From positions 1-21,922 of the IMG/VR virus record IMGVR_UViG_3300032284_001621: a stretch of DNA of 21,922 nt; one strand, 5' to 3'. This document shows, one piece after another, positions 2,889 through 18,549 of this stretch. Made by a program: the position numbers and the translations under genes. This stretch comes from a virus. The notes under the pieces were generated by a model. It was not told where the DNA came from. It saw only the letters and a list, made by a program, of their open reading frames with translations, and ran no database searches. Position 1 is the stretch's first letter, and every line of letters starts with the position of its first letter.

Positions 2889-4515
2889 CGAAAAGGTGCC
2901 ACTGCCCCAACTGGATAACTTCAGCGAACTGGGCGCCACGGGTCTTTGGCGCACGGGCGGATTCGTCATTGATGACATCCTTCCCCAACTTCGGGGTCGC
3001 CAATCTCTTACAGCCTACCGTGACATGGCTGAAAACGACCCCGTAATTGGGGCAATAATCTTTGCCATTGAGCGTGTAATCCTTCAGGTTGACTGGCGGG
3101 TTGACCCCCACACCGACCCAACTGGTGAAACCCCAAACAATAACGACCAGTTAGCAGCCGACTTTGTTCAGGAGTGCATGGACGACATGAGCCACTCGTG
3201 GCACGAACTAATGATTGCCATCACCTCGTTTCTTGTGTACGGCTGGTCATACTTCGAGATTGTCTACAAGCAACGCAAGGGACCTGACCAGAAAGACCCC
3301 TCAAAGCGCTCCAAGTTCAACGACAACAAGGTTGGCTGGCGCAAGATTGTTATGCGTGCGCAGGACAGTTTGTGGCAGTGGCAGTTTGACGAGAGTGGTG
3401 GAATCAAGGCCATGGTGCAACGTGACCCCACGACGGGTCGCTTGAATGTTATTCCAATTGAGAAGTCGCTCCTGTTCCGCACCACGTCGGCTCGTGGCAA
3501 CCCCGAAGGTCGCTCCGTCCTGCGTTCAGCATTCAAGGCGTGGTACTACAAGCGACGTATCGAAGAGTTTGAGGCAGTTGGCGTTGAGCGTGACCTCGCT
3601 GGACTTCCCGTCGGCTACGTCCCAGCCGAGTGGCTTGCCGCAGACGCTACGCCTGCTGAAAAGTCGTCGTTGAACGCCATGGAGCGCATTGTTCGAGGTG
3701 TAAAGCGCAACGAAACTGAAGGCATAGTCCTTCCGATGATGTTTGACGAGAACGGTAAGCAGTTGATTGACTTCAAGTTGCTGAACTCCGGAGGCGCTCG
3801 CCAGTTCAACACTGACCAAATCATCTCTCGCTACAACCAGCAGATTGCGATGACCTGTTTGGCAGACTTCATCATGCTGGGACACGAGGCCGTTGGCTCG
3901 TTCGCCCTTGGCGCTTCCAAAGTAGACCTCTTCATGGCAGCAGTGGAATCTTGGATTCGCCTTATTGCCGAAGTGTTCAATAGCCACGCCATTCCACGCT
4001 TGATGGCACTTAACGGATTTGACACCGCACACTGCCCGACCCTAACTTACGGACAAGTAACCCAAGTGGACTTGGTGGAATTGGGCGCATTCCTCACGAA
4101 CCTGACCCAGAGCCAGTTGCTTACGCCAGACAACAACCTCGAAGATTACTTGCGTGAACTTGCTGGGATGCCAGCGTTCCGCCCTGAGGAAAATGGTTTG
4201 GCACATAACGTTCGTTATGGTGGAAACCAAATTCAACCCGACCCAGAAATGGCAGACCCATCTAAGGCGTTCATCGGCGCTCGTGGTTCAGCATCCACCG
4301 TCGCCACCGCCCAAAGCAACACCGAGCCCACGGGCGTTCAAAACCCACAGGGTGGGACTAACGACCAGTCGGGTGGCTCGGGCATTCAAGCGGACATTTC
4401 CTCGCAAGGTTATCCGGGGCAAACTGGTGAAATCCCACCGTCGGCTGGCGGACAGACCCGAAACACGACTGGTCAGAACGGCCCCCTAACAAACAACCAA
4501 GGACCGACTTCGTGA
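2878..4515 (+). CDS. portal protein, Mu gp29/DUF935-type
   Basis: This 545-residue protein fits the DUF935/Mu gp29 portal family. It has Y-R-D-M-A-E-N-D-P-V-I-G-A near residue 45, followed by W-R-V. Later come L-L-F-R-T-T-S-A-R-G-N-P-E-G-R-S-V-L-R, A-W-Y-Y-K-R-R-I-E-E-F, and the crown-region segment G-S-F-A-L-G-A-S-K-V-D-L-F. Twelve copies of such a protein would form the DNA entry/exit vertex of the capsid and nucleate assembly. The last 90 or so residues are Gly/Asn/Gln/Thr-rich and look disordered. It overlaps whiB by 11 bases and the next small ORF by four (GTGA). No terminase gene lies immediately upstream, which is unusual for this position. Confidence 0.92.
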   Translation: MADNEKVPLPQLDNFSELGATGLWRTGGFVIDDILPQLRGRQSLTAYRDMAENDPVIGAIIFAIERVILQVDWRVDPHTDPTGETPNNNDQLAADFVQECMDDMSHSWHELMIAITSFLVYGWSYFEIVYKQRKGPDQKDPSKRSKFNDNKVGWRKIVMRAQDSLWQWQFDESGGIKAMVQRDPTTGRLNVIPIEKSLLFRTTSARGNPEGRSVLRSAFKAWYYKRRIEEFEAVGVERDLAGLPVGYVPAEWLAADATPAEKSSLNAMERIVRGVKRNETEGIVLPMMFDENGKQLIDFKLLNSGGARQFNTDQIISRYNQQIAMTCLADFIMLGHEAVGSFALGASKVDLFMAAVESWIRLIAEVFNSHAIPRLMALNGFDTAHCPTLTYGQVTQVDLVELGAFLTNLTQSQLLTPDNNLEDYLRELAGMPAFRPEENGLAHNVRYGGNQIQPDPEMADPSKAFIGARGSASTVATAQSNTEPTGVQNPQGGTNDQSGGSGIQADISSQGYPGQTGEIPPSAGGQTRNTTGQNGPLTNNQGPTS

Positions 4516-6511: not shown

Positions 6512-6810
6512 TGGCTGACGGTCACGTCAATACAAACGCCTCGCAGACAAACGGTACCAACGGAAACGTTGCCGTAAGTGCGAACACCTCAGTTCTGGTT
6601 CTTCCCGCCCCGACGACTATCCACCCCCGTCTTCAGACGTGGATTTACAATGCGTGCAGCGCCACCGCCTACATCAACTTTGGAACCACTGCCGTAACTG
6701 GCACGGGTATCCCGTTGGCACAGGGCGCAAACATCACGTTCACCACATACGGTGGCGCAATCTCAGCCATTTCCTCGGGAACTGGCACGATTATCTACGC
6801 TTGGGTCTAA
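6511..6810 (+). CDS. small beta-rich protein, possible capsid decoration, 99 aa
   Basis: The start overlaps the protease stop (TAATG). After an Asn/Thr/Ala-rich first 25 residues the chain has alternating hydrophobic beta-strand patterns (V-L-V-L-P, I-Y-N-A-C, A-Y-I-N-F-G, I-T-F-T-T-Y-G, G-T-I-I-Y-A-W-V). This is typical of small phage beta-sandwich or beta-tulip proteins. It has no helix, catalytic motif or membrane span. Position right after the prohead protease is where decoration or head-stabilising proteins often sit. That assignment is inference; a receptor-binding or fibre-tip role is less likely here. Confidence 0.6.
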   Translation: MADGHVNTNASQTNGTNGNVAVSANTSVLVLPAPTTIHPRLQTWIYNACSATAYINFGTTAVTGTGIPLAQGANITFTTYGGAISAISSGTGTIIYAWV

Positions 6811-6813
6811 ATC

Positions 6814-7548
6814 ATGTCGAGCCTCGACAGTGAAATCTTTTCTTGGGTTCGGATTGCCAAAGGCGATGTAGCGGGACACGCCTTTCATGGAAACCAATAC
6901 GAGACTGGCTCGGGCGGTTCTTCAACAAGTACATTGATTCGTGAGGCACATCGAGTTGCCAGCCTTTTAGAGGTTCGTGCCAATAAAAATGAACCTGAAA
7001 TTTCAAGAGAAATTAAAGAATCGTGCGAGCAATTTGGCGGAACCCAAATAAAGCCCGAAAGTTCAGTAAAAACGGCGAGCAGTATTGAGCGAAAACTTAT
7101 TTTAGACAGCAAGGAATACCTCGATACCGCCAAAGGTTCAATTCAGGATGCCGCTACAAACTTGGGGGACACGGTTCGTTACACCATTCAGTTTTCGGCG
7201 GACAAATTTGCGGACGGCGTTTCCAAAACTCTTGATGATTTCAAGAGTGAGGGTTTTGAAGCAGTTAAGGTGAAAAACTTTTTTAACAACGACCCCCAAA
7301 ACTCTTATCGGGGAATCAACTGCGTTTTTCGTGACACCTCAAGTAACCAATTATTTGAGGTTCAATTTCACACCCCAGAGAGCAGTTTTGCCGTAAGCGT
7401 CGCACACCCGTTATATGAGGCCGCCCGCCTTCTAGACCCCTCCACTCCCGAATACGCTTCAGAACAGCAAAAAATGATTTCGACGTGGCAGGGCGTTCCA
7501 ATTCCCCCCGGCGTTGAGAACATAGGCAAACTATCGGTTAAGAGGTAA
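6814..7548 (+). CDS. tagged RelA/SpoT-fold protein, 244 aa
   Basis: The N-terminus has the D-S-E-I-F-S-W-V-R-I-A-K-G-D segment and then the GHxFHGNQY tag (K16-Y29). After a Gly/Ser linker, residues about 85-200 follow the RelA/SpoT nucleotidyltransferase layout. S-S-I-E-R-K-L is followed by G-D-T-V-R-Y-T (D119, R122), like the D-x-x-G-x-R region of synthetases. Then come S-Y-R-G-I-N (Y165) and F-E-V-Q-F-H-T (E182, Q184), like GYRxIH and ExQIRT, and finally H-P-L-Y-E. Relatives make (p)ppGpp, or (p)ppApp in the toxin Tas1. The same domain occurs as C-terminal toxin modules in phage and polymorphic-toxin proteins. Activity and substrate are not determinable here. It begins three bases after the previous stop and belongs to the head operon. 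Confidence 0.72.
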   Translation: MSSLDSEIFSWVRIAKGDVAGHAFHGNQYETGSGGSSTSTLIREAHRVASLLEVRANKNEPEISREIKESCEQFGGTQIKPESSVKTASSIERKLILDSKEYLDTAKGSIQDAATNLGDTVRYTIQFSADKFADGVSKTLDDFKSEGFEAVKVKNFFNNDPQNSYRGINCVFRDTSSNQLFEVQFHTPESSFAVSVAHPLYEAARLLDPSTPEYASEQQKMISTWQGVPIPPGVENIGKLSVKR

Positions 7549-7550
7549 CT

Positions 7551-8183
7551 GTGGCTTGGACTTTCTACCAGTTGACCGCTATTGACGGCACCAACCGACC
7601 CCTTGCTTGGTATCGCTATGACGGAAAGTCCCCCCAATATTGGGACGGGTCATCGTGGCAAAAATCAGAAACGTTGCTGGAAAAATTAAACGAAGGCGAC
7701 CCCATGCTGGACAAACTTGACAAAAATCCCGTAACTAAAACTAAGGAGAAAATTATGTCCGACTCCAGTAGTGAAATAACCAAAGGCGACGTTCCGGGCC
7801 ATCCTTTTCACGGGAATCAATACACGGGTGGAAATGCCGGAGCCCACTTTGACGGCTTTCGCCCAATTAACCCTCAAGAAACTATTGCCCAAATTGGAAA
7901 AATGAACATCCTCGGCATTTCGGGCGGTCGTGTCAATGCCCTAAAAAACAGTCATGGTGAAACCGTAGGCATTCAATTACCAGTTGGGCACGGATACGGT
8001 GTAAACGTTTTGCTCCACCCAAACGACACGTACACAGTTCAGCGCACATATACCCGCTCTGGAACCACGACTATAAAGGGTCAAGAAGAAGAGGTTTACG
8101 CCGACCAACTCGGTGACGCCGCTTATCGTGCTGGAATGTATGTCAACGTTCCCTTCGGCGGACACAAGGGTACGTTGGGCTAA
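7551..8183 (+). CDS. tagged conserved actinophage protein with two possible starts, 210 or 142 aa
   Basis: The frame opens at GTG (7551) and encodes about 65 residues rich in Trp/Tyr (A-W-Y-R-Y-D-G-K-S, Y-W-D-G-S-S-W). An in-frame ATG at 7755 has a much better ribosome binding site (AAGGAG) and begins M-S-D-S-S-S-E-I-T followed directly by the KGDVPGHPFHGNQY tag. The start at 7755 therefore looks like the tagged protein proper, and the upstream part may be a separate or fused product. The C-terminal domain (N-I-L-G-I-S-G-G-R-V, L-P-V-G-H-G-Y-G-V-N-V, Y-A-D-Q-L-G-D-A-A-Y-R-A-G) matches a pattern I know from many actinophage proteins of unknown function. Confidence 0.75.
   Translation: MAWTFYQLTAIDGTNRPLAWYRYDGKSPQYWDGSSWQKSETLLEKLNEGDPMLDKLDKNPVTKTKEKIMSDSSSEITKGDVPGHPFHGNQYTGGNAGAHFDGFRPINPQETIAQIGKMNILGISGGRVNALKNSHGETVGIQLPVGHGYGVNVLLHPNDTYTVQRTYTRSGTTTIKGQEEEVYADQLGDAAYRAGMYVNVPFGGHKGTLG
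7743..7757 (+). promoter_or_regulatory. internal ribosome binding site and start
   Basis: AAGGAG (7743-7748) stands six bases before ATG at 7755, in frame with the longer ORF from 7551. This is among the strongest Shine-Dalgarno sequences in the head operon. The protein it would start has the tag placed nine residues from its N-terminus, as in neighbouring tagged genes. Confidence 0.6.
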
Positions 8184-8188
8184 ACCAT

Positions 8189-8215
8189 AGATTTATAAAT
8201 CTAAGGGTAGTATTT
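8189..8215 (+). promoter_or_regulatory. palindrome plus TAGYATTT box
   Basis: A perfect 14-bp palindrome AGATTTATAAATCT (8189-8202) is followed by GGGTAGTATTT (8205-8215) and then TTCACCAGAA, 40 bases before the next start codon. The box and the TTTCACCAGAA sequence recur at 10225-10243. It is either an internal promoter with an operator-like palindrome or a weak hairpin. Confidence 0.45.
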
Positions 8216-8247
8216 CACCAGAACGTTTTGCTAAGAAAGGCAACGCA

Positions 8248-8841
8248 ATGACTGACAATCTTGACATTGTTCCTGAATGGGTTATTACTTTGGAAAAGGG
8301 CGGACCCGGTTCGGGGGAAAATCCAGGACACCCTTTCCGTGGCAACGGCGCTACTGGTGGTGTTTTTCAGGCTGGTGCCCATAACCCACGTGGCGAGCAG
8401 AACTGGTCACACCACGACCACTTAAACGCAGCCACAGGTCACGTCAATGCCGCTATTGCCGCTTTGCACGCTGGGAAGTTTGGAGATGCTCGGGCCCACT
8501 TTAATGAGGCCGCTTACCATATGGCTCAAGCGACAACTTTATTGAACAAAAACGGTGCGGATACTTCGCTTCATCAGATGTCGAAGGCCGGGTACGCCGC
8601 CAACCACACCGCTGGTGACATGGCTGAACTCGCTAATAAGGCTACCAACGATTACGCCCGAGCCCTTCGTGCTGGTGTCGACCAGAATACCCTATCTATG
8701 TTGGCGCTCCACGCAAACCTTGCCCAGCAGGGTGCAATGAACGCTGGGGACACGGCTTCTTCAAACTTGAACCAAGTCACCTCGCAACGTGTTGGTCAGG
8801 CTATGTTAGCCGCCGCTAATCAGGGGCAACAGGCTTCGTAA
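8248..8841 (+). CDS. tagged helical-bundle protein, 197 aa
   Basis: It starts at ATG after AAGAAAGG. The first 16 residues (with D-I-V-P-E-W-V-I) lead into the glycine variant of the tag, K-G-G-P-G-S-G-E-N-P-G-H-P-F-R-G-N (17-33). The remainder is Ala-rich and helical with many His and Asn, e.g. H-H-D-H-L-N-A-A-T-G-H-V-N-A-A. It has TPR-like spacing of small residues (G-K-F-G-D-A-R-A-H-F-N-E-A-A) and ends in a low-complexity Gln/Ala tail. No enzyme motif is visible. It may be a head-interior structural or scaffold-like protein. It is followed 12 bases later by the Dps gene. Confidence 0.72.
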   Translation: MTDNLDIVPEWVITLEKGGPGSGENPGHPFRGNGATGGVFQAGAHNPRGEQNWSHHDHLNAATGHVNAAIAALHAGKFGDARAHFNEAAYHMAQATTLLNKNGADTSLHQMSKAGYAANHTAGDMAELANKATNDYARALRAGVDQNTLSMLALHANLAQQGAMNAGDTASSNLNQVTSQRVGQAMLAAANQGQQAS

Positions 8842-8853
8842 GGTTATTTCACT

Positions 8854-9315
8854 GTGGACATCTCAAAAGACGCCAATCAAGACCTTTCGGTAGCACTCGC
8901 TACCTTGCTTGCTGACGCTACCGTGATGTATCACCGTGTTCACGGCTTCCATTGGAACGTCGTGGGGACCGACTTCCCCCAGTACCACGCAAAGTTTGAG
9001 GAAATCTACACAGACGTGTACGAGAGCCTCGACCCCATTGCTGAAAACTTGCGCAAGTTGGGTGTATTCGCCCCCTTTCGCCTAATGGACTTGGCTCGTA
9101 TGGCATCAGTTGCCGACGGTGCCGTGTCGGATTATCACCACGACACGCTTGTTCAATCACTTCTTGCAACAAACACTGGCGTGCTGGCGACCCTGAACAA
9201 GGCGTTCGCCCTAGCCACGAGTGCCAATCAGCAAGGCATTGCGAACTTCCTCGCAGACCGTATTGACCACCATCAAAAGTGGGCGTGGCAGTTGTCCGCC
9301 TCACTACAAGGATAA
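8854..9315 (+). CDS. dps: Dps-like miniferritin
   Basis: The 153-residue four-helix-bundle protein carries the Dps ferroxidase set in correct spacing: H33-W34-N35, H45, E49, D60 and E64, within F-H-W-N-V-V-G-T-D-F and H-A-K-F-E-E-I-Y. These correspond to E. coli Dps H51, H63, D67, D78 and E82. Dps dodecamers oxidise Fe(II) with peroxide, store ferric mineral, and often bind and protect DNA. The N-terminal tail is short (about 10 residues with two Lys), so strong DNA binding is not obvious. It lacks the GHxFxGNQ tag of its neighbours. It starts at GTG 12 bases after the previous stop. A virion-borne or infection-stage oxidative protection role is inference. Confidence 0.9.
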   Translation: MDISKDANQDLSVALATLLADATVMYHRVHGFHWNVVGTDFPQYHAKFEEIYTDVYESLDPIAENLRKLGVFAPFRLMDLARMASVADGAVSDYHHDTLVQSLLATNTGVLATLNKAFALATSANQQGIANFLADRIDHHQKWAWQLSASLQG

Positions 9316-9327
9316 GGAACCGACATT

Positions 9328-10203
9328 ATGTCAGAAAATCTAAACACCGAAATTGCCTCGTGGCTCGCCAAGGCTACCGCTGTTGGCACGCCTTTCAAGA
9401 CGGACGGCATCGACCACGTTGCGATGGCGAGCAAGCACGACGCCCTTGCTGAAAAGCACTCCAAGATGGCTGACGTTTTGGACGGCGCATCGAAGGCGAC
9501 CTCAGACAGCCGTTCGTCGCACTTTTTTGCCAACGCTTCCAAGGCTCACGCTCACGCCTCAGACCTGCACGCTAAGGCATCTGACGCTCACCGTTCAGGG
9601 AACCTTGAGGCTTCACAAGACGCTACAAAGTTGGCTATGGACGCTTCCAAAACTGCCGACGAAACGAATGACGCCGCTCAAAAGATTGCCGAGGCTCAGG
9701 CTAGGGGCAAGGAAATCGTTGCTCAGGCTGTTGCCGATGACGCTTCTAAGGTGGGCAAAGACGCTGGTTTCATGTTTGATGGTTCAGCAGATGACAGTTC
9801 CGACGGCGACGACACCACGGAGGACAGTTCGGCGAGCGACGACAGTTCCGTCGGTGACGACGACAGTTCGGTCAGCCTGTCCGACCTTGTAATCGCAGCC
9901 GAAAAATCTGCCGACGCTGGTGAAAACTACAAAAAACAGTCCGCTCAGGCGTACATGAATAACGACACCGAGGGTGCTATGCAGTTATCGCTTCTCGCCT
10001 GTGACGCCTATCAAACCGCCCACGCTTACCTGCGTCAGGCCGCTTTGGTTGCTGGAATGAATGGTGGGGTTGTTAAGGGCGCAGTTCTCGATGACGACCA
10101 CCCACTTGCCTCACTCGCAAATGTTAACCGCCCCTTTTCCCCAATGAGTGGTGAAAAGATTGTTGATGACGACCACCCACTTGCCTCACTTTTGAACAAG
10201 TAA
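9328..10203 (+). CDS. Ala-rich helical protein with acidic linker and duplicated C-terminal motif, 291 aa
   Basis: It begins L-N-T-E-I-A-S-W-L-A-K-A, the E-I-x-x-W segment shared with tagged neighbours, but has no GHxFxGNQ motif. Residues about 25-145 form long Ala/Lys/Asp helices with frequent His (coiled-coil-like). Residues about 150-185 are an Asp/Ser linker. Residues about 190-245 are helical again. The last 45 residues contain D-D-D-H-P-L-A-S-L twice, encoded by a perfect 26-bp DNA repeat, the second copy being almost at the C-terminus. The terminal short motif resembles a docking peptide. A scaffold or internal head protein is plausible from composition and neighbours; no family recognised. 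Confidence 0.72.
   Translation: MSENLNTEIASWLAKATAVGTPFKTDGIDHVAMASKHDALAEKHSKMADVLDGASKATSDSRSSHFFANASKAHAHASDLHAKASDAHRSGNLEASQDATKLAMDASKTADETNDAAQKIAEAQARGKEIVAQAVADDASKVGKDAGFMFDGSADDSSDGDDTTEDSSASDDSSVGDDDSSVSLSDLVIAAEKSADAGENYKKQSAQAYMNNDTEGAMQLSLLACDAYQTAHAYLRQAALVAGMNGGVVKGAVLDDDHPLASLANVNRPFSPMSGEKIVDDDHPLASLLNK
10090..10190 (+). repeat. 26-bp direct repeat encoding DDDHPLASL
   Basis: The same 26 bases occur at 10090-10115 and 10165-10190, starts 75 bases (25 codons) apart. Both are read in the same frame at the C-terminal end of the 291-aa gene. Exact DNA identity points to a recent duplication or to strong selection on both copies. Confidence 0.9.
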
Positions 10204-10224
10204 TCAGGCATTTACAAATATCGG

Positions 10225-10243
10225 TGTAGCATTTTCACCAGAA
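10225..10243 (+). promoter_or_regulatory. TAGYATTT box upstream of the 455-aa gene
   Basis: TGTAGCATTTTCACCAGAA stands 35 bases (counted from TAG) before ATG at 10262. It shares TTTCACCAGAA with the block at 8213-8223 and TAGCATTT with 4649-4656. A TTTACA at 10211-10216 is too close to be a normal -35. Confidence 0.4.
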
Positions 10244-10261
10244 GCGAAAGGCAAGGAAACT

Positions 10262-11629
10262 ATGATTTCTGTTCCTAATAACACTCCAAAGACCGTCTCG
10301 TTCACGCAGACCGTGGACAACAACACCACCGACATTGCCAAGTCTCAGATTGGCAAGTTGGCTCTTGCTGAGACGCTTGCTTTGGGTGAGAAGGAGAACG
10401 CAGATTTCCACCTTGCCAAGGCAACGGAAACCCTGCGCCTCGCCGAAATCGCCTACCGTGAGAGCATCAGCAAGTCGGTTTGGAACAAGGAAGAACTGCG
10501 CAAGGCGTACAACAACGCTATCGCTGGTTACCGCCTTGCCGACCAGAAGGCTCAGAAGGCTGCGGAAGAGTTGACGCTCGCTAAGAACGCTTTGGCTGGC
10601 ACCCGTGCCGTTGCCAATGGTGAAATCCTTAAGCGTGAGTTCTCGGACGACAAGCGTCAGGAACTCGCCTCGAAGGGCAAGGCTATGCCCGACGGCTCGT
10701 ACCCAATCGAAACCAAGGCTGACCTCGCTAACGCCATTCAGTCCTATGGACGTGCCTCTGACCCCAAGGCGGTCAAGGCGCACATCATTACTCAGGCTAA
10801 GGCTCTCGGTGCCTCCGACGACCTGCCCGAAGATTGGAAGGACGCTGAGTCACTTTCCACCGCAGTGCCGACCACCAAATCCGTTCTCAGAAAGGACGCT
10901 TCAATGTCAATGACCGATTACCCAGTAGACCCCAGCATGGGCATTCCCGTGATGGCTGGACAGACCGACGATGACGCTTCAGCACCCTACGACAAGATTC
11001 TCTGCCCCGACTGCCTCGGTTTTGACGGTAACGAGGGTTGCCCCACCTGTGACGGCGTGCAGTTCATTGCGGTCATGAAGGAAGCCCCCCGCACGGCTAA
11101 CCCCTTCGCCACTGACGAGTTGCTTACCCGTCAATTCCAAAAGTCGAGTGCTTACCAGAACTACATCATGAAGGGTGGACCAGGTTCGGGCGCCCAGGTG
11201 GGACACTCCTTTAACGGTAACCAATGGACGGGCGGTATGCGTTCGTTCACTCGTGGTGAAATGGCTGGCAGGCGTGAGGGCTGGAAGCAGACCCTCAAGC
11301 GTTACGAAGGCGCTCACGACCAGCACCTTGCTGCTGGACGACAGGCCAGTGCCGACGCCCGTGCTTTGGAGCAGGCTGGTAGGTTGCGTGAGGCTGCGGA
11401 CAAGCACGAGGAAGCCAACGGTCACCTCATGAAGGCCCACGGCGCACTCAAGGGTATGCAGAACGTTATGCAACGTGAGACGGACAACGGCTCACACGGC
11501 GCTTCGCAAGACCAAGTTGCTGGCTACGCAGGACGTGCCTCGTCAATCCGTGCCGAGGCAAATGCTGCTGCGGACAATGTTGCTCGTTTGAACCCGTTGG
11601 CTGACGCACAAAACCTTGCCCGTGCATAG
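10262..11629 (+). CDS. modular tagged head-region protein with CxxC motif, 455 aa
   Basis: The ATG follows AAGGCAAGGA. Residues about 20-120 are long helices. About 128-190 contain K-G-K-A-M-P-D-G-S-Y-P-I and a D-L-A-N-A-I-Q-S-Y-G-R-A-x-D segment ending in L-P-E-D-W, a recurring small domain of phage head/scaffold-region proteins. A DnaJ-like C-P-D-C-L-G-F-D-G-N-E-G-C-P-T-C-D-G lies at about 245-262, then N-P-F-A-T-D-E-L-L at about 280, then the glycine variant of the tag (K304-W322). The last 130 residues are Ala/His-rich helices. Codons for Lys are almost all AAG, suggesting high expression. Function is unknown; the order suggests a scaffold or cargo carrier. Confidence 0.75.
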   Translation: MISVPNNTPKTVSFTQTVDNNTTDIAKSQIGKLALAETLALGEKENADFHLAKATETLRLAEIAYRESISKSVWNKEELRKAYNNAIAGYRLADQKAQKAAEELTLAKNALAGTRAVANGEILKREFSDDKRQELASKGKAMPDGSYPIETKADLANAIQSYGRASDPKAVKAHIITQAKALGASDDLPEDWKDAESLSTAVPTTKSVLRKDASMSMTDYPVDPSMGIPVMAGQTDDDASAPYDKILCPDCLGFDGNEGCPTCDGVQFIAVMKEAPRTANPFATDELLTRQFQKSSAYQNYIMKGGPGSGAQVGHSFNGNQWTGGMRSFTRGEMAGRREGWKQTLKRYEGAHDQHLAAGRQASADARALEQAGRLREAADKHEEANGHLMKAHGALKGMQNVMQRETDNGSHGASQDQVAGYAGRASSIRAEANAAADNVARLNPLADAQNLARA

Positions 11630-11631
11630 TC

Positions 11632-12111
11632 ATGGGCAATCCCTTCTCCACTGAAAACTTGCTTGAAGGTCAGGGAATTTACGCAGTCGTCAAGGCTGAT
11701 AAGTGCCCACTTTGCAAGGGAACGGGCAAAATCCGTGGTGGAAACGTAACTTGCCCTAAGTGCGGTGGCAAAAAGGCGGTTACCAAAGGCGACGTACCCG
11801 GACACGAGTTTCACGGGAATCAGTACGAAGCGGGGCAAGGTGGTGGTGGAAACCTCACCCCTTCAGGGCACCGACCACTGAACGAAATTGCTCGTGACAT
11901 CGAAAAGGTTTGGAATGCGAACAGCAAGAAGGGCGTGTACTTCGGTGCTAAGCCCTACCTTGACGCAATGAAAAGCCTGCACGACATCAAGGACAACTAC
12001 TACCAAGACACCGCCAAGAGCATCGTGAACTACCTTCTTGCCAACATGGGTACTTTCCGTGGTGATGGTGCTGCGCCGTTGAGGGCAGAACTGAAGGCTT
12101 TGGTCAAGTAA
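11632..12111 (+). CDS. tagged zinc-finger protein, 159 aa
   Basis: It starts three bases after the previous stop with M-G-N-P-F-S-T-E-N-L-L, nearly the sequence found inside the preceding protein and at the start of the next mini-ORF. Next is a DnaJ-like zinc knuckle (C25, C28, C41, C44; CxxCxGxG then CxxCxG), then the tag K52-G-D-V-P-G-H-E-F-H-G-N-Q-Y65. The C-terminal 85 residues are a helical domain with A-K-P-Y-L-D-A-M-K-S-L-H-D-I-K-D-N-Y-Y-Q-D, a pattern I associate with conserved actinophage proteins of unknown role. The stop overlaps the next start (TAATG). Confidence 0.75.
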   Translation: MGNPFSTENLLEGQGIYAVVKADKCPLCKGTGKIRGGNVTCPKCGGKKAVTKGDVPGHEFHGNQYEAGQGGGGNLTPSGHRPLNEIARDIEKVWNANSKKGVYFGAKPYLDAMKSLHDIKDNYYQDTAKSIVNYLLANMGTFRGDGAAPLRAELKALVK

Positions 12112-12182
12112 TGTCAAATCCCTTCTCAACCGACAACCTCATCCCGCTTTGGAAACTCGGCGCTCCCTACTACGGGGGCTAA
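12111..12182 (+). CDS. 23-aa mini-ORF with NPFST N-terminus
   Basis: The ATG overlaps the previous stop, and the peptide begins M-S-N-P-F-S-T-D-N-L, nearly the same as the start of the 159-aa gene just upstream (MGNPFSTENL). It then ends in W-K-L-G-A-P-Y-Y-G-G before TAA. The next gene starts three bases later. It may be a remnant of a duplicated gene that lost its body, or a coupling peptide. Sequence similarity to the neighbour argues against chance. Confidence 0.5.
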   Translation: MSNPFSTDNLIPLWKLGAPYYGG

Positions 12183-12184
12183 CC

Positions 12185-12631
12185 ATGTCTGACGACATTC
12201 TTTCTTGGGTCAAGTTTGCCCGTGAGGTGGAAATCCACAAAGCAGGCAACGCTCAAGGTTTGATTGACTGGTACAACAACGGTGCCGACGGACAAATCAA
12301 CTGGGGTGCAGAAGGCGACTTCGCAGACTGCGTGGCGATTGCTGGAAAACACCTTGACAACCCTGAAGGGTTCTGCCAACTACGCCACATTGACGCTACA
12401 GGTGCGCCAACAGGACACGCTTCTGGTGAAATCGCTAAAGCAGACAAGCCTGACTACACGAAGTTAATTTCTGACCGCAAGGGCGAGCCAAGCGACCAAG
12501 ACTTGTACAACCAAGTCAAGGCAGACGCACAGAAGAAGTTTGATGTCTACCCTTCAGCAGTCGCCAACGGCTGGGTCGTGCAAGAGTACAAGCGTCGTGG
12601 TGGGACGTACCATAAGCCTGCAAAGGCGTAG
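12185..12631 (+). CDS. two-domain conserved phage protein, 148 aa
   Basis: I choose the ATG at 12185, three bases after the mini-ORF stop and preceded by GGGGG. The N-terminus then reads S-D-D-I-L-S-W-V-K-F-A-R, matching the E-I-x-x-W-V segment of its neighbours. Residues about 35-75 contain G-A-D-G-Q-I-N-W-G-A-E-G-D-F-A-D-C-V and G-F-C-Q-L-R-H, a module recurring in phage head proteins. Residues about 105-140 contain K-K-F-D-V-Y-P-S-A-V-A-N-G-W-V-V-Q-E-Y-K-R, another widespread module of unknown function. A GTG/TTG-type start further upstream (12149) would overlap the mini-ORF and has no support. No GHxFxGNQ tag is present. Confidence 0.78.
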   Translation: MSDDILSWVKFAREVEIHKAGNAQGLIDWYNNGADGQINWGAEGDFADCVAIAGKHLDNPEGFCQLRHIDATGAPTGHASGEIAKADKPDYTKLISDRKGEPSDQDLYNQVKADAQKKFDVYPSAVANGWVVQEYKRRGGTYHKPAKA

Positions 12632-12633
12632 TC

Positions 12634-13335
12634 ATGTCCGTCACGGACGGTGAAATCCTAGAGTGGATTGAGTTCGCCAAAGGCAAGCCAAAAACGGTCA
12701 AGTCAATCGCTTCTAAGCACAAGGCGCACGTAAAAACAGCACTCGTAGGAAGCATTGTCGGTATCCCTGCCGGTATCGCTCTAGCAAATGCGGGCAAAAA
12801 CCCCAAAGATGCTCTGTCGGTAAATAACGACCAAATGAATATCGCCCTGACAAACCTTTACGGGGACGCAGTTCCAGCAGGGTCAAGTCACGGTGGCGTT
12901 CTTCTCGCACTTGGCATTGGCACACTATGGGGGCTTGCGTCGGCGATGCAAAGTATTGGAAAAGACTTGAGCAACATCACCTCGGGTATCGGCAACACGA
13001 GCCTCAACATTGCTACATCTCAAATAATGCAGGGCGTGGGTAACGGGTCAAGCGCAGACCAAATCACCAGCGACGCAAACAACGCCATAACGTCCCCAGA
13101 GCGCCTCAGCATGATTGCGACCACCGAAGCCTCTCGTGGGTTCAATGCGGGCGTTGTAGAGGCTTTCAAGGCGAACAACATTCAGCAGTTTAAGTGGATA
13201 AACATTGAGGGCGTCTCGTGCCCCGAATGTACCGCAATGGCGGGCGCACACGACATCACGGACCCGATTCCACCACTCCACCCTGACTGCCTCTGCACGG
13301 TGGAGCCAATCAAAAACCTTGAAGTATCCTTGTAG
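12634..13335 (+). CDS. Mu F-like minor head protein, 233 aa
   Basis: The C-terminal 80 residues fit the Mu gpF head-morphogenesis family. An A-T-T-E-A-S-R-G-F-N-A-G helix is followed by F-K-W-I and a Cys/His pattern C196-P-E-C199 ... P-P-L-H216-P-D-C219-L-C221, the usual zinc-like end of this domain. The N-terminus has D-G-E-I-L-E-W-I-E-F-A-K-G, the shared short segment. Residues about 35-110 have two hydrophobic, Gly/Ala-rich stretches (V-G-S-I-V-G-I-P-A-G-I-A-L-A and G-V-L-L-A-L-G-I-G-T-L-W-G-L) that could be membrane-active. Mu F-like proteins are ejected minor head proteins in several phages. Here the gene is short and about 8 kb from the portal, where it normally follows directly. Confidence 0.82.
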   Translation: MSVTDGEILEWIEFAKGKPKTVKSIASKHKAHVKTALVGSIVGIPAGIALANAGKNPKDALSVNNDQMNIALTNLYGDAVPAGSSHGGVLLALGIGTLWGLASAMQSIGKDLSNITSGIGNTSLNIATSQIMQGVGNGSSADQITSDANNAITSPERLSMIATTEASRGFNAGVVEAFKANNIQQFKWINIEGVSCPECTAMAGAHDITDPIPPLHPDCLCTVEPIKNLEVSL

Positions 13336-13336
13336 T

Positions 13337-13735
13337 ATGGATTTCACCACCGACGCACTCTTGTATCCAATCACAAAGGGCGACCTAAGGGGTCACGTCT
13401 TTCGTGGGAACCAGCACTCTCGTGGTGGACTGAACGCCTTTGACGCCAAGAACTTGCTTTTCACTGCGACCTGTGCGTCAGGACATTCCAATACCATCAA
13501 AGTCCCCGACACTTGGGTTGAGCGCAACCCCGACGGGTCAATAACGGGTCAGTTTGCCGCTTCGTCGCAATCACGCTTATGCGCCACTTGCTCTCGCCCC
13601 ATTGACAACCGTTGGTCGCTTGTCGCAGGTCAAAAAATCCTTCCAAATCCTGACACAAATGCCCCTTCGCAGTATCAGCAGTGGGGCGTGGGTGGACAAA
13701 AGTACGTTCAAACTACTTCTACCCCTTCTAAGTAG
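13337..13735 (+). CDS. tagged protein with CxxC, 132 aa
   Basis: The ATG at 13337, one base after the previous stop, gives M-D-F-T-T-D-A-L-L-Y-P-I-T and then K14-G-D-L-R-G-H-V-F-R-G-N-Q26, matching the tag position of its neighbours. The frame is open further upstream inside the Mu F-like gene, but that part is not needed. The body is about 100 residues with C-A-S-G-H and C-A-T-C, a possible zinc ribbon. The chain ends in a Gln/Tyr/Thr/Ser-rich tail (Q-Q-W-G-V-G-G-Q-K-Y). No known family; probably another cargo-type protein from its tag. Confidence 0.7.
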   Translation: MDFTTDALLYPITKGDLRGHVFRGNQHSRGGLNAFDAKNLLFTATCASGHSNTIKVPDTWVERNPDGSITGQFAASSQSRLCATCSRPIDNRWSLVAGQKILPNPDTNAPSQYQQWGVGGQKYVQTTSTPSK

Positions 13736-13770
13736 TCGTAGTAAACTTTGGTAAAACAAAAGAAGGCAAA

Positions 13771-14046
13771 ATGCGTATTTCCAACATCATCTCAAACGTT
13801 GTAAAAACGCAGGACACAAAGTCCTTGTACTTTTATAGTGTTCAGGCAACTAGAGACTGCCTCGGCGTAGCCACCCTCAGTGGTGGAAAGTTTGTTGCGC
13901 TCACTGGCGAAGCCAAATTCTGGGTAGACAACGACAAACAACTCGCAAAGAAAATCCTCAATAAGGACATCACGGACGAGGAAGTTTACAACGACTTGGC
14001 TGGGTGGAGCAACGGCGAAATATTTACCACGGTTACCCCTCGGTAA
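13771..14046 (+). CDS. small protein paired with kinase-like gene 1, 91 aa
   Basis: The ATG follows AGAAGG by five bases. A TAGTAA box lies 32 bases upstream. The protein is alpha/beta: beta-strands over the first 50 residues (L-Y-F-Y-S-V-Q-A, G-V-A-T-L-S-G-G-K-F-V-A-L), then a helix, and an end reading G-W-S-N-G-E-I-F-T-T-V. The 74-aa gene before the second kinase-like gene ends in N-W-S-N-G-Y-Y-L-T-F, so the pair appears related in arrangement and possibly fold. Role unknown; it could be a partner or inhibitor of the kinase-like protein encoded five bases downstream. Confidence 0.68.
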   Translation: MRISNIISNVVKTQDTKSLYFYSVQATRDCLGVATLSGGKFVALTGEAKFWVDNDKQLAKKILNKDITDEEVYNDLAGWSNGEIFTTVTPR

Positions 14047-14051
14047 ATGCC

Positions 14052-15056
14052 ATGGATTTTGATGCCATCATCAACATTCTCAAGGGTGACTATGTAGGTC
14101 ACAACTTCCACGGCAACCAGTGGCTCAATTTGAACGGTCAGTTTGACCCCAACGCCCAAGGTGGAATACGCCCTCGACGGGGTGGCGGTGCCCAGCCTAA
14201 GCCCGCACGGGCGAGGAAGCCTGTTGCGGTGCGTCAGCCTAAGCCCGCACCGGCTCCGACGCCAGTTCAGCAATCGCCTGTCACGCCCCCCGTGGAAGCG
14301 CCAAAACAAGATGTCAAGTTGGACGGTATTGGAACGGGCAAGCAGTATCTCGGCCCATCAAGCAAGAACATTACCAAGGTAGACGAAGACCTTTCCAATT
14401 TGGGTGGAGCACAACAAAAAAGTATGCAACTTGTGACCCTTGACGACGGCTCGAAAGCAATAGTGAAAACCATTGGACGATGGGGTTCGCAAAGTGGGGC
14501 AGACCTTGCAGAAAACGAGGTATTAGCATCAAAAATTGGCGAAGCCATGGACATCCCAATTCGGGGCGCAGTTATGAAAGACGGAACAAAAGATACCATC
14601 ATTCAGCCATTTATTAACGGTCAACGATGGGGCAGGTTGAGTGACGTTAACGATAGTCCCGGCGACACCCGAGTAAGCAAATTGCCAACAGAGTGGGTTG
14701 AGCCAATGGGTGAGGTGAAATTGTTTGACCAACTTTCGGGAAACCCTGACCGCCATGCCGGAAACCTAATGGTTTCTGGCGTTCCTAGTGATTTCAGAGG
14801 AACTATGCAAGAGGCCGCAAACATGGGCGCAACAATTGTTGGCATCGACCACTCGTTGTGTTTTACCTATGGTCCAAGTAATTTTGGACTACAAAATATC
14901 GTTAATAACTACGGCATTCCACCGGAGCGATTGAGCCAAATGGCTTCTGGTCTTACAACCCTTCAATCGAGTGGAGCATTATCTTCCCTTGAGCAAGGCA
15001 AGGTTGACAATATAGTTGAGGCGTTTAATAGGGTATTCCCAGAGGCGTTTAAGTAA
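14052..15056 (+). CDS. tagged HipA/PI-kinase-like protein 1, 334 aa
   Basis: The ATG at 14052 is chosen because M-D-F-x-x-I-x-x-I-L-K-G-D and the tag (K11-W24) then align with the paralogue at 15285. A Pro/Ala/Lys linker (about 40-85) leads to a kinase-like domain. L-D-D-G-S-K-A-I-V-K has K139 as the likely ATP-binding Lys. G-N-P-D-R-H-A-G-N-L has D233 and N238 as the likely catalytic loop, and G-I-D-H-S-L has D266 as the likely metal-binding Asp. This is the HipA/phosphatidylinositol 3/4-kinase-like fold seen in bacterial and phage proteins. Substrate is unknown. The Pro-rich linker contains a 16-bp DNA repeat. The stop overlaps the next start (TAATG). Confidence 0.78.
   Translation: MDFDAIINILKGDYVGHNFHGNQWLNLNGQFDPNAQGGIRPRRGGGAQPKPARARKPVAVRQPKPAPAPTPVQQSPVTPPVEAPKQDVKLDGIGTGKQYLGPSSKNITKVDEDLSNLGGAQQKSMQLVTLDDGSKAIVKTIGRWGSQSGADLAENEVLASKIGEAMDIPIRGAVMKDGTKDTIIQPFINGQRWGRLSDVNDSPGDTRVSKLPTEWVEPMGEVKLFDQLSGNPDRHAGNLMVSGVPSDFRGTMQEAANMGATIVGIDHSLCFTYGPSNFGLQNIVNNYGIPPERLSQMASGLTTLQSSGALSSLEQGKVDNIVEAFNRVFPEAFK
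14193..14250 (+). repeat. 16-bp direct repeat in the Pro-rich linker
   Basis: CAGCCTAAGCCCGCAC occurs at 14193-14208 and 14235-14250, starts 42 bases (14 codons) apart, encoding Q-P-K-P-A twice in the linker between tag and kinase-like domain. It is probably a local duplication that lengthened the linker. Confidence 0.8.
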
Positions 15057-15280
15057 TGACACAGACAATTATTTTTGTACCCCAAGACGCCACCTCCCCC
15101 AGCGAGAGTGAAGGCTCCGTCACAATTGACAACGGCAAAATCACCTTGGTTGAGGGAGTTGCCACGGGGTTTGTTCGTCGCTACCGTGACTTGATGGGTA
15201 TGTCTGACCAAGACACGTTCAATGTCCTCAGCAACAACTGGTCGAACGGGTATTACCTAACTTTCCCCAAACCCGAGTAA
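15056..15280 (+). CDS. small protein paired with kinase-like gene 2, 74 aa
   Basis: The start overlaps the kinase-like 1 stop. The protein has beta-strand segments (T-I-I-F-V-P; G-S-V-T-I-D-N-G-K-I-T-L-V-E-G-V-A) and a C-terminal helix followed by S-N-N-W-S-N-G-Y-Y-L-T-F. The W-S-N-G-Y ending is familiar from small actinophage proteins of unknown function encoded in the head region. It is placed before a kinase-like gene just as the 91-aa protein is, with only four bases between. Confidence 0.7.
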   Translation: MTQTIIFVPQDATSPSESEGSVTIDNGKITLVEGVATGFVRRYRDLMGMSDQDTFNVLSNNWSNGYYLTFPKPE

Positions 15281-15284
15281 TGAC

Positions 15285-16130
15285 ATGGATTTCCGTTCAA
15301 TTTTCACCATTCTCAAAGGGGACGTGGTAGGTCACTCCTTCCACGGAAATCAATGGTTGACGGTTGAGGGGAAGTTTAATGCTGGAAACGTCCGTGTTCC
15401 ACGTGTTCCAAAACCCGCACCCGCAAAGCCGGTTCCTGCCGCTTTGGGCAAAGGTCATTTTATTGCCCTGAAAACAGGTGAAATAGCCAAGCCAATCGGT
15501 GGCACCATGAACATGGGTGGCGCTTACAACAAGGGTTGGCAGAAGGTGGAAATGAAGGACGGTTCCATTGCGGGCGTGAAGACCGCCAGTGACAAAATGG
15601 GCAATGGTGGACAAAGCGGAGCAAAGCAAGACGTTCAAAACGAAATCCTCTCTGCGACAGTTGGGAAAGCGCTGGACATTCCAATTCGTGACGCACTCCC
15701 CGTTGCCGGACACCCCGACCAGTGTGTATCACCATGGATTGAAGGCTCGCCCGTTGGGAAAATGCCATACGCAGCGAACGTAAGTACAGCCGACGACCCC
15801 GAACTAAACAAACTCCGCTTCTTTGACCAGTTGGTAGGAAACCCAGACCGTTTTGACGGCCATGGTGAAATAGTAAACCCAGCCAACATTCTTAGGAACG
15901 TGGCGGACGGGTCACTCGTAGGGATTGACAACGCTATGGCGTTTCACACCGGATACGGCGGTATTCCAAACTTTTCACTGCTAGGCAATCCTTCGCAAGA
16001 CACAATCAAAGGTATGTTTGCCAGCCTCACTAGCCTGCAACCAACCTTTGCTTCGGCTGGGCGCATTGACTCTTACAACGCCATGATGGACAGGTTCAGG
16101 ACGGGGTTTGTGAACTATGTTCCAGCCTAA
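15285..16130 (+). CDS. tagged HipA/PI-kinase-like protein 2, 281 aa
   Basis: A paralogue of the previous kinase-like gene: M-D-F-R-S-I-F-T-I-L and the tag K11-G-D-V-V-G-H-S-F-H-G-N-Q-W24. A shorter linker follows, then the kinase-like domain with K99 in G-V-K-T, D188 in G-N-P-D-R-F-D-G-H-G, and D215 in G-I-D-N-A-M. The catalytic-loop region differs from copy 1: H-A-G-N-L is replaced by a longer F-D-G-H-G-E-I-V-N-P-A-N-I-L, so the Asn that should follow the Asp may be supplied later. It also has I-P-I-R-D-A, like I-P-I-R-G-A in copy 1. Its 3' end overlaps the next gene by 14 bases. Confidence 0.78.
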   Translation: MDFRSIFTILKGDVVGHSFHGNQWLTVEGKFNAGNVRVPRVPKPAPAKPVPAALGKGHFIALKTGEIAKPIGGTMNMGGAYNKGWQKVEMKDGSIAGVKTASDKMGNGGQSGAKQDVQNEILSATVGKALDIPIRDALPVAGHPDQCVSPWIEGSPVGKMPYAANVSTADDPELNKLRFFDQLVGNPDRFDGHGEIVNPANILRNVADGSLVGIDNAMAFHTGYGGIPNFSLLGNPSQDTIKGMFASLTSLQPTFASAGRIDSYNAMMDRFRTGFVNYVPA

Positions 16131-18549
16131 CTTCGTAAAGTTCACCAACACCCAAATTGTCAGTCGTGACCCAATGGGCGGAGATTTCAAAGGTAATCAA
16201 AACGAAGGACTTAACTTCGTGCAGTTTGCCGACGGCTCGGGCGGTCTAGAAAAGCAGATGAAGGACTGGATTGGAAACAAAACGGGTCGTCTGTACCGTG
16301 CTGAAATCCTTGCCTCGCAGGAGTACCTCGCTTCCCGTGTGGGCGAAGTAATGAACGCTCCAATCCGTGACTGCCTGTTCACCTCACCTGACGCAAAGAC
16401 CATTGTCATGCCCTTTATTCACGGGCAATCGGGCGAAGAGTGTGGCAAAGATGAGTGCTACCCAGAAAACGCTCAAGGTGGAAACCTACGCCTGTTTGAC
16501 TACTTGACCGCCAACGCAGACCGTCGCCCCAAGAACCTGATGTTCACCTCGCACGGCATTGTGGGCATTGACCACGCCTTGTGCAACTTCCGCCCCCGTG
16601 AAGCCACCCCAGAGGTCGTCTCGTTTCTTTGGAACCGTGGGCTAACCACTGACGCTTTGCTCACCTTACGCCCCAAACTAGAGGCTCTACAGGGCATTTT
16701 CCACCAACTAGGCATGGACGACAAGCACCAGAACTTGCTTGACAACCTTGACCGCCTCATCAAAGCCTTCCAAATCGTCTCGCAGTTTGCTGTGGTGGAA
16801 AAAGGAGATGTCGCTGGTCATGAGTTTCACGGCAACCAGTACCAACAGGTTGCCTCGGAGCCAGAACACATGAGCCTGTACAGGAGCAACCTAAAGAAGT
16901 TCTACGACGCTGGTGGAAAAATTGAGCGCATTGACAACCCCGACAAGATGCTTGACGTTTACCACGAGGCACAAGCACTTCGTGAAACCCCCGAGTACAA
17001 GCAAGCAGATGAACGAACCCAACAGGGCATTCGTTTCATCAACGAAGCAGCCATGTATGCCACCGCCGACGCTAGGGCAACACAGTCAGATAGCAACCCC
17101 CACGATGTTGTAAGTTCCCACCTTCTTGTAGCCCGTGACGCAGACGGGAAACTTTTGGGCGCAGTGAACGTCAGCATTCGTGACAACTACGCCCTTAACG
17201 AACAAGAGCATCAGATTGACCCCAATTCACCAGCCATGAGGGTCGTCTACGGTGGCTACCTAGGCTCTACGGGTGAGGTCGCAGGCACAGGAACCGCCTT
17301 AATGGAACAGCAAATCCAGTTTGCAGGCGACCACGCAATGCCATTGTTGTACGAAACGACAGCCGACAGCAATCCATACCACACGATGCTTGGCGCTACC
17401 AGTTTTGGTCGAGGACTGTTTGGTTTCACCGCACAAGAGGCTCAGACCATTGGCGCTATTCCAAATCCCGAAGCCAAGGTCATAAAAGATACGTTCACCC
17501 CACCGCAGGGGGTGCAAGAGGCCGCTAAGCGAGCATTGGAATGGATTGCCGATGGCAAGGCAGGCTCAGGGTTCACCAACGTTGGGCGTAAGCGAGCCTC
17601 AGACCTCGGTAATGGGCACGCAGTATCCATCGACACCCTGAAGCGCATGAAGGCGTATTTTGACCGTCACCAGCCCGATAAAAAGGCGGAAGGTTTCCGT
17701 CAAGGCGAACACGGGTACCCCTCGCACGGACGTGTGGCGTGGGATGCGTGGGGCGGAGACGCAGGCTACTCATGGGCAAAGAAAATGGTCGCACACTTCA
17801 ATAGCCAAGAGGTAAAAAAAGGCGATGTTGAGGGTCACGAATTCCACGGCAACCAGTACACAGGTGGTAGCGGTTCAGCAGAAGGCGCACTGCTCACTGG
17901 CGACCAAGTGAAGTCAGCCATTACATCTCCGCAAGGAATTGACAAATTCAACAGCATTATGTCAAAGCAAGGGTTTCTAACCTACCCAGTAAATCAACCC
18001 CTTTACGGTGGATGTGGCGTGGTTATGAAGGCACTACAGAACATCTATCCCAACGGCAAGCCCGTTGCTATTGGTGAACCGATTACGCCGGAAGAGGGCG
18101 AGGACTACCCACCCGTTTTTGTTCAGCACTACGCAATCCAAATCGGTGACGATAAGTTTGTTGACAGCGCAGGCGTTCGTTCCTTTGCTGAAATCGCAGA
18201 GACAGGTGTATTGGGTAAGTATTGGAAGGTCTTTCCAGCCACCCCCGAACTTATTGGTCGCTTCCAAAACATTGCCACTTGCTCCGACGCTGAAGCCAAG
18301 GACTACGCCAACGCCCTACTTCAGGCGAGCGGAAGCAACCAAGTGGTGAAGTCGGTTTCCAAAGTCGCTGGCGACATCTGGGCACGGTTCGCCTTACTCC
18401 CGTTCCAAAAGGCGAAGAAGCCCAAGGACGAACACCTCAGTGACAAGGCAGTCAAACTGCTCGCCCAAGAGCAAGAGGCGCACGAGGCAGGCGACGATGA
18501 CAAGGCAAGCCAACTCCACTACCAAGTGCTGAACGAGGTCTACAAATAG
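16117..18549 (+). CDS. 810-aa multidomain protein: kinase-like, GNAT-like and Cys-protease-like modules joined by tags
   Basis: Domains in order: a degenerate tag (D18-P-M-G-G-D-F-K-G-N-Q28); a third kinase-like domain, about 30-220, with A-N-A-D135-R-R-P-K-N and G-I-D152-H-A-L; a full tag (K229-Y242); a GNAT-like domain, about 300-455, with L-L-G-A-V-N-V, G-Y-L-G-S-T-G and G-T-G-T-A-L-M; a module about 480-562 with D-T-L-K-R-M-K-A-Y-F-D-R-H and W-D-A-W-G-G-D-A-G-Y-S-W-A, recurrent in phage head proteins; a second full tag (K568-Y581); and a domain with C633, H671 and D683, laid out like a papain-type hydrolase. A Lys/Glu-rich helical tail ends the protein. The N-lobe ATP-binding Lys of the kinase-like part is not clear, so that unit may be inactive. 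Tags falling exactly at domain borders suggest a fusion or a cleavable polyprotein. Confidence 0.8.
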   Translation: MFQPNFVKFTNTQIVSRDPMGGDFKGNQNEGLNFVQFADGSGGLEKQMKDWIGNKTGRLYRAEILASQEYLASRVGEVMNAPIRDCLFTSPDAKTIVMPFIHGQSGEECGKDECYPENAQGGNLRLFDYLTANADRRPKNLMFTSHGIVGIDHALCNFRPREATPEVVSFLWNRGLTTDALLTLRPKLEALQGIFHQLGMDDKHQNLLDNLDRLIKAFQIVSQFAVVEKGDVAGHEFHGNQYQQVASEPEHMSLYRSNLKKFYDAGGKIERIDNPDKMLDVYHEAQALRETPEYKQADERTQQGIRFINEAAMYATADARATQSDSNPHDVVSSHLLVARDADGKLLGAVNVSIRDNYALNEQEHQIDPNSPAMRVVYGGYLGSTGEVAGTGTALMEQQIQFAGDHAMPLLYETTADSNPYHTMLGATSFGRGLFGFTAQEAQTIGAIPNPEAKVIKDTFTPPQGVQEAAKRALEWIADGKAGSGFTNVGRKRASDLGNGHAVSIDTLKRMKAYFDRHQPDKKAEGFRQGEHGYPSHGRVAWDAWGGDAGYSWAKKMVAHFNSQEVKKGDVEGHEFHGNQYTGGSGSAEGALLTGDQVKSAITSPQGIDKFNSIMSKQGFLTYPVNQPLYGGCGVVMKALQNIYPNGKPVAIGEPITPEEGEDYPPVFVQHYAIQIGDDKFVDSAGVRSFAEIAETGVLGKYWKVFPATPELIGRFQNIATCSDAEAKDYANALLQASGSNQVVKSVSKVAGDIWARFALLPFQKAKKPKDEHLSDKAVKLLAQEQEAHEAGDDDKASQLHYQVLNEVYK

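Follow-up and report, generated by a model that had tools for sequence, protein, structure and literature searches.

Processing sites of phage T4 read (L/I)-x-E. The internal proteins of T4 carry capsid-targeting sequences, with 10 residues being enough for IPIII, and gp21 cuts after a glutamate in a short motif (PMC9026906). Head proteins of phage SPN3US lose N-terminal propeptides at A-x-E, two of which are only 20 and 24 residues long (PMC10052503). Two established classes of predicted phage-delivered effectors (PMC5576092, PMC5512222, PMC9503650) are the MuF polymorphic toxins, in which a phage head domain is joined to variable effectors including alarmone synthetases (PMC12691689, PMC5576092), and the polyvalent proteins, large multidomain phage proteins with ADP-ribosyltransferase, 2H, RelA, and other domains that are predicted to be packaged and processed (PMC5512222). 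Here, we analyzed a virus record from IMG/VR (IMGVR_UViG_3300032284_001621), the whole stretch of 21,922 bases being referred to as the window, in which a glycine-rich peptide, the GHxFxGN tag, recurs on proteins encoded downstream of the portal and maturation protease genes. Judging from the sequences, we estimate a probability of about 0.65 that this tag is a cleavage junction for the maturation protease on virion cargo, used also as a separator within polyproteins.

Like the propeptides of T4 IPI-III and Alt, the tag system has a short N-terminal leader common to unrelated proteins, and tags with a glutamate before the constant G-D read [VL]-x-E, resembling the hydrophobic-x-E sites cut by gp21, the T4 protease. 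By analogy, the tag element may work like the T4 and SPN3US propeptides. It differs in its constant core behind the site, its repeated use as a separator between domains, the far larger number of proteins per genome, and a genome-dependent residue before G-D (P1, with P3 two positions upstream) that would act as a lock; it is known from sequence only. In SPN3US and phiKZ, a P3-x-P1 motif (A-x-E and S/A-x-E) marks the site at which many internal head proteins are shortened, as we propose for the tag. Such sites have few determinants past P3 and P1, and the available parts of the two sources (PMC10052503, PMC9026906) describe neither a portable core nor a separator. Some tag carriers are MuF-tag-effector fusions as in MuF toxins, but the majority lack a MuF domain and have leader and tag in its place. 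Multidomain effector polypeptides, as known from polyvalent proteins, are found among the polyprotein carriers, such as the product of gene 16117-18549 in the window and a protein of locus L262, but not among solo carriers. For polyvalent proteins, processing was proposed to occur via embedded metallopeptidases or assemblin-like domains, and the available part of PMC5512222 mentions no tag.

Ten tag copies in nine genes

Nine genes that immediately follow those for the portal protein and the XkdF protease contain ten full copies of the tag, all in frame on the plus strand, in agreement with an earlier note on this DNA. In the window, a degenerate DNA pattern for GHxFxGN has 10 matches, compared to 0.01 expected from 100 dinucleotide-preserving shuffles. 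The copies and the leader of the first are:

6814 to 6858, plus strand: N-terminal leader MSSLDSEIFSWVRIA, predicted short helix (from sequence; AlphaFold helix at residues 3-9, low confidence)
6859 to 6900, plus strand: tag 1 KGDVAGHAFHGNQY, then an alarmone-synthetase-like domain (gene 6814-7548)
7782 to 7823, plus strand: tag 2 KGDVPGHPFHGNQY, inside gene 7551-8183 (start codon GTG), behind a conserved WTFYQL segment
8296 to 8349, plus strand: tag 3, KGGPGSG-type KGGPGSGENPGHPFRGNG, behind leader MTDNLDIVPEWVITLE (gene 8248-8841, His/Ala-rich helical cargo)
11171 to 11227, plus strand: tag 4 KGGPGSGAQVGHSFNGNQW, internal in gene 10262-11629
11785 to 11826, plus strand: tag 5 KGDVPGHEFHGNQY, internal in gene 11632-12111, behind a DnaJ/anti-TRAP-like zinc ribbon (weak Pfam matches)
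13376 to 13417, plus strand: tag 6 KGDLRGHVFRGNQH, in gene 13337-13735, 13 residues from its start
14082 to 14123, plus strand: tag 7 KGDYVGHNFHGNQW, in gene 14052-15056 (HipA/RIO-like atypical kinase), 10 residues from its start
15315 to 15356, plus strand: tag 8 KGDVVGHSFHGNQW, in gene 15285-16130 (paralogous kinase), 10 residues from its start
16801 to 16842, plus strand: tag 9 KGDVAGHEFHGNQY, in polyprotein 16117-18549, with the kinase-like domain before it and a GNAT-like segment after it
17818 to 17859, plus strand: tag 10 KGDVEGHEFHGNQY, ahead of the C-terminal YunG/papain-like domain of 16117-18549

The modeled structure of the product of gene 6814-7548 resembles a small alarmone synthetase, an exported one being its best PDB match (E 3e-12), and in the AlphaFold model residues 1-36 have a predicted local distance difference test score (pLDDT) below 50, with the folded domain starting at residue 37. 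The earlier note had described the carriers as sharing no domain, but the products of genes 14052-15056 and 15285-16130 and the N-terminal part of the 16117-18549 product are paralogous atypical kinases with conserved catalytic-type residues. The first of these has conserved K, E, DR, and ID residues and RIO, CtkA, and HipA folds among its best PDB matches; the second matches Pfam HipA_2 at 6.7e-4, which is below the curated cut-off. The region of tag 9 has homologous tagged segments in three other loci (L022, L056, and L073) and the segment of tag 10 has homologues elsewhere (segment cluster 13), while the GNAT and YunG/papain-like labels are our own readings of the sequence.

Two further details required revision. 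An eleventh, degenerate copy had been proposed around position 16177, but this GGDFKGNQ string aligns to the glycine motif of the kinase domain, where the paralogue alignment puts it on GGAQQ, followed by a DGSxxxxK strand, and it is not a tag. Similarly, an internal start at 7755 had been assumed for gene 7551-8183, but the 68 codons from 7551 to 7755 encode the conserved WTFYQL segment, which is fused in frame behind an alarmone-synthetase domain in loci L126 and L064. Without this start, the tag is N-terminal in five genes and internal in four, and not, as previously counted, N-terminal in six and between domains in three.

A portable consensus with a genome-typed P1

Beyond the window, the pattern KGDxxGHxFxGNQ, searched as degenerate DNA, had at least 119 matches in viral contigs, and the tag is present on more than 100 contigs of IMG/VR. 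A control with the same residues reordered had no match in viral contigs. The exact tag pattern was absent from 84,980 prokaryote genomes, consistent with the expected rarity outside phages. The window and the loci among the matches listed contain 365 tag copies in 261 frames, most contigs being incomplete metagenomic assemblies in which the starts of our gene calls are approximate. Whole contigs contain up to 25 copies (G001, 69 kb) or 24 copies (G008, 121 kb), with no match for the backward-read pattern. Arrays in G008, G028, G030, and G022 again lie behind portal and protease genes, and capsid-like, decoration-like, and most tail-like genes are untagged. In G008, a second, smaller group of tagged genes (L211, G008:14001-34000) is separated from the main array by over 50 kb and lies close to a ParB-like gene and tail-like genes. 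In a tblastn search of isolated phages and plasmids with the bare tag, Xanthomonas phage Rb1 was the sole convincing match; the negatives carry little weight because the BLAST low-complexity filter probably masks other matches. The tagged Rb1 protein is annotated as "internal head protein" and matches a family described as "released from the phage upon host infection" as well as DarB-like families, the latter being a likeness to polyvalent proteins. The literature searched, which covered few subscription journals, contained no description of the tag strings, and generic GGPGSG was found only in unrelated papers.

The consensus hydrophobic-x-K-G-D-x-x-G-H-x-F-[HR]-G-N-Q-[YW]-T-x-G is common to 118 near-N-terminal and 78 interior copies, although conservation of KGD and Q is inflated by the selection of loci with these residues in at least one copy. 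A tag may follow a short N-terminal leader or a portal, MuF, or XkdF domain, or stand between domains of polyproteins of up to 3016 amino acids (aa). Copies in the same protein are ~100-580 aa apart, thus domain-sized, except for one pair at 23 aa. Furthermore, solo tagged cargo in one phage corresponds to a polyprotein segment in another in 79 homologous pairs (at most 90% identity), including the product of gene 6814-7548.

The segments flanking the tags form 171 clusters, 113 of them singletons. Neighboring domains are mostly enzymes, such as alarmone synthetases, HipA/RIO-like kinases, ADP-ribosyltransferases, GNATs, and Zeta toxin; for enzymes like the alarmone synthetase and the kinases of the window, a structural role is not obvious. 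Family searches with 148 segments identified portal, MuF, XkdF, and other head proteins, ADP-ribosyltransferases (three Pfam families), Zeta toxin, GNAT, topoisomerase IB, pentapeptide repeats, and many unknowns. The largest polyprotein (L262:676-9726, 3016 aa) has eight A/L-type tags and includes GNAT, HD-phosphohydrolase, and DRAT domains and an intein-interrupted MuF region; a neighboring tagged protein matches 2'-5' RNA ligase/Acb1-like families. His/Ala-rich helical domains with H-x3-A repeats are found in many carriers in both solo and polyprotein forms, and in the window in the products of 8248-8841 and 9328-10203.

As had been noted for the window, the DNA of the copies differs at synonymous positions. 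Third-base entropy of the core glycines is 1.94 and 1.89 bits compared to a background of 1.91, and because synonymous sites are not conserved, the tag is kept at the protein level. Together with the shuffles, these free third bases rule out chance or a DNA repeat as the origin. They also largely refute a DNA-level recombination element promoting module exchange: exchange of cargo modules at the tag is clear, but third positions of the core vary about as freely as those of the background, and copies within the same genome differ in DNA. We likewise give little credence to a flexible interdomain linker whose sticky consensus spread with shuffled modules and has no trans-acting reader. The tag is glycine-rich, is followed by Gly/Ser-rich sequence, and lies between domains, as a linker would, but invariant H, F, N, and Q residues do not resemble a linker, its sequence is kept at the protein level, and a genome-typed P1 and P3 need a reader.

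P1 is nearly uniform within a genome and is K, L/A, F, or E between genomes, the tags with L, A, F, or E having been found in a second scan (GHxFxGNQW) that left the upstream residues unfixed. The majority P1 of their own genome is present in 94.8% of the copies, compared to a permutation maximum of 79% (2000 permutations, leaving out copies of the KGGPGSG variant with S at P1), and in the genomes of the unconstrained scan the values are 87.5% and 72.9% (5000 permutations). Tags of the KGGPGSG type behave likewise at the residue that precedes GG (K in K-type genomes, L in L231). P3 follows the same pattern: of 244 unique K-type copies, 238 read [VILFM]-x-K, and the six E-type copies all read [VL]-x-E. 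L/A-type genomes depart from this hydrophobic-x-charged form, with a basic P3 in 30 of 48 copies; the copies counted are not independent of one another. Homogenization within genomes was rejected as the cause of the uniform P1, as the excess at synonymous third bases is only 0.01-0.22 compared to ~0.6 at P1. GC content was rejected as the cause of K versus L/A, as K-type loci keep K at 38-71% GC and none of the non-K loci has a K copy. Position +4 (H/R) is also genome-specific and, with an excess of 0.41-0.44, second only to P1; most other variable positions are far lower.

Protease families, leaders, and the proposed cleavage

The association with proteases was confirmed: XkdF is found in 24 of 42 K-type tag contigs but in only one of 46 random viral contigs (P = 4e-9), which were drawn with one 15-base pattern, and MuF is found in 20 of 42 versus 4 of 46. 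In the window and its relatives G008, G028, and G030, XkdF is encoded directly upstream of the carriers. None of 33 second-scan contigs exceeded the cut-off for XkdF (P = 2e-8 compared to the K-type contigs, uncorrected for kinship), but eight of them match phrog_12864, labelled as head maturation protease, which is absent from the 42 K-type contigs (P = 8e-4; mostly weak matches); a few contigs of this second scan, such as the K variant L230, lack a clean type. In the E-type locus L258, a 1038-aa polyprotein combines a protease domain (phrog_15531) with a coiled-coil, scaffold-like C-terminus and has tags between its modules, and every site reads [VL]-x-E followed by GD.

Leaders of ~10-22 residues precede the N-terminal tags and are alike within a genome despite unrelated cargo, as in five genes of L022 ('xSGFxxxxLLYPLT-K') and three genes of L122 ('MxIINRFG'). 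Leader and tag are separable, as three genes in the window, including the MuF-like gene, encode a leader-like N-terminus without a tag. These genes and the three that precede the array are:

2878 to 4515, plus strand: portal protein (Mu/P23-45-like), untagged, anchoring the head operon (Pfam Portal_Mu 1.3e-33; phrog_113 3.6e-82)
4682 to 6511, plus strand: XkdF-like (S78_2) maturation protease (Pfam PF14550 2.6e-12, residues 469-587)
6511 to 6810: small head decoration-like protein (our own reading of the sequence)
9328 to 10203, plus strand: helical cargo-like protein with leader MSENLNTEIASWLAKA, no tag (from sequence)
12185 to 12631, plus strand: leader-only gene with leader MSDDILSWVKFAR and C-terminal DUF5872 (Pfam DUF5872 5.4e-9)
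12634 to 13335, plus strand: MuF-like minor head protein with leader MSVTDGEILEWIEFAKGK, no tag (Pfam Phage_Mu_F 1.3e-6; at 29.5 bits just below the cut-off of 29.6)

The window encodes SSB, WhiB, the portal protein, the XkdF-type protease, and the small decoration-like protein, followed by the gene array; none of the nine tagged genes matches PF04233 (MuF). In the protease, a long Ser/Asp repeat linker separates the N-terminal part from the protease domain. A Dps/ferritin-like gene (8854-9315, Pfam Ferritin 5e-17) is untagged in the middle of the array, a position kept in G008, G028, and G022.

The tag could instead be an encapsidation (cargo-loading) peptide that binds the prohead interior, like encapsulin cargo peptides or the T4 capsid-targeting sequence, and is itself uncut. 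Its presence on cargo-like enzymes beside the head protease would fit, as would the disorder, and therefore accessibility, predicted for the tag region in two proteins, and a core that is constant across phages with differing proteases. We nevertheless consider this unlikely: the tag follows portal, MuF, and XkdF domains that are already head-localised, multiple copies per polyprotein would be redundant, the MuF-like and two other operon proteins bear the leader without the tag, and a genome-typed P3 and P1 would be unexpected for binding to a shell, probably of the HK97 type in related contigs, unless the shell varies in step.

A further motif bears on the function of the core. In L247 and L233, a near-identical leader (LTYREKLAFL-L) precedes GDVEGHPFRGNQW in one protein and GGAGSGNFGHAGRPGEVGGS in another, and the tag is therefore one of at least two apparently interchangeable cores. 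The second core, GGxGSGNFGHxGRPGxxGGS, is also glycine-rich and shares leader and genomes with the tag but differs in sequence, is located on portal-like and other head proteins, and was not described in the literature searched. It is also found in portal-like genes of prokaryote contigs, among them contigs of Clostridia, Desulfosporosinus, and Terriglobus, and of the five cases that could be read, four have D before GG. Such a replacement behind the same leader in the same genome, like the constancy of the core despite differing proteases, could point to a late signal, in which the shared GD..GHxFxGNQ N-terminus left after cleavage guides unfolding or threading through the portal and the tail, or else binds to a partner inside the host. 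However, the core could equally be a prime-side contact of the protease, and we regard such an ejection signal as very improbable.

The favored reading is cleavage. A short N-terminal leader, or a portal, MuF, or protease domain, would carry the protein into the prohead, where the maturation protease, for which the XkdF-like protein encoded at 4682-6511 is the candidate trans-acting factor in the window, would cut behind the three-residue site preceding G-D ([VIL]-x-K|GD in this phage). In polyproteins, cutting at the junctions between domains would release individual enzymes, and the freed enzymes would probably be ejected into the host along with the DNA. Of the portable sorting or processing signal suggested earlier, portability holds and processing is favored, because the same consensus is found at N-termini and between domains, fused and separate forms are equivalent, and the upstream residue matches the protease; sorting may be done by the separate leader. 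Cleavage is also supported by the position of tag genes beside XkdF, MuF, or portal genes, the domain-sized spacing of the copies, the covariation of P3 with P1, the L258 polyprotein, the predicted disorder of the tag, and the precedents of T4 and SPN3US.

Several observations weigh against cleavage. XkdF was not seen in 18 of the 42 K-type contigs, some of which are fragments, and the association of P1 and protease may partly be due to shared ancestry of the K-type phages. The major capsid protein of the related phage L208 has no obvious K-type site; in the E-type L258, LQE|AMS at the start of the capsid domain is at most suggestive of capsid cleavage. Two proteins of L031 terminate in the tag (VGAQEGHPFYGNQHASGN-stop), where a cut would free only ~15 residues. 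Moreover, the constant GHxFxGNQ core behind the supposed cut is far longer than T4- or phiKZ-type sites need and may therefore have a second function, for example in docking or once the protein has been cut.

Implications for phage-delivered effectors

Which proteins phages carry in their heads and inject is a long-standing question, and the answers so far come mostly from proteomics on a small number of isolates. If the tag marks cargo, injected effectors, including alarmone synthetases, ADP-ribosyltransferases, kinases, acetyltransferases, unknown domains, and possibly anti-defence enzymes, could be listed from metagenomes. The P1 code would provide testable substrate specificities for three maturation protease families, and reporter proteins of choice could be loaded into phage heads by means of the tag. 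Tentatively, the constant core may mark virion-delivered effectors, with the P3-x-P1 lock fitting the phage's own protease and up to ~25 effectors freed per genome. If this is true, the interchangeable cores GD..GHxFxGNQ and GGxGSGNFGHxGRPGxxGGS would be a general sequence read-out of the effectors that phages inject.

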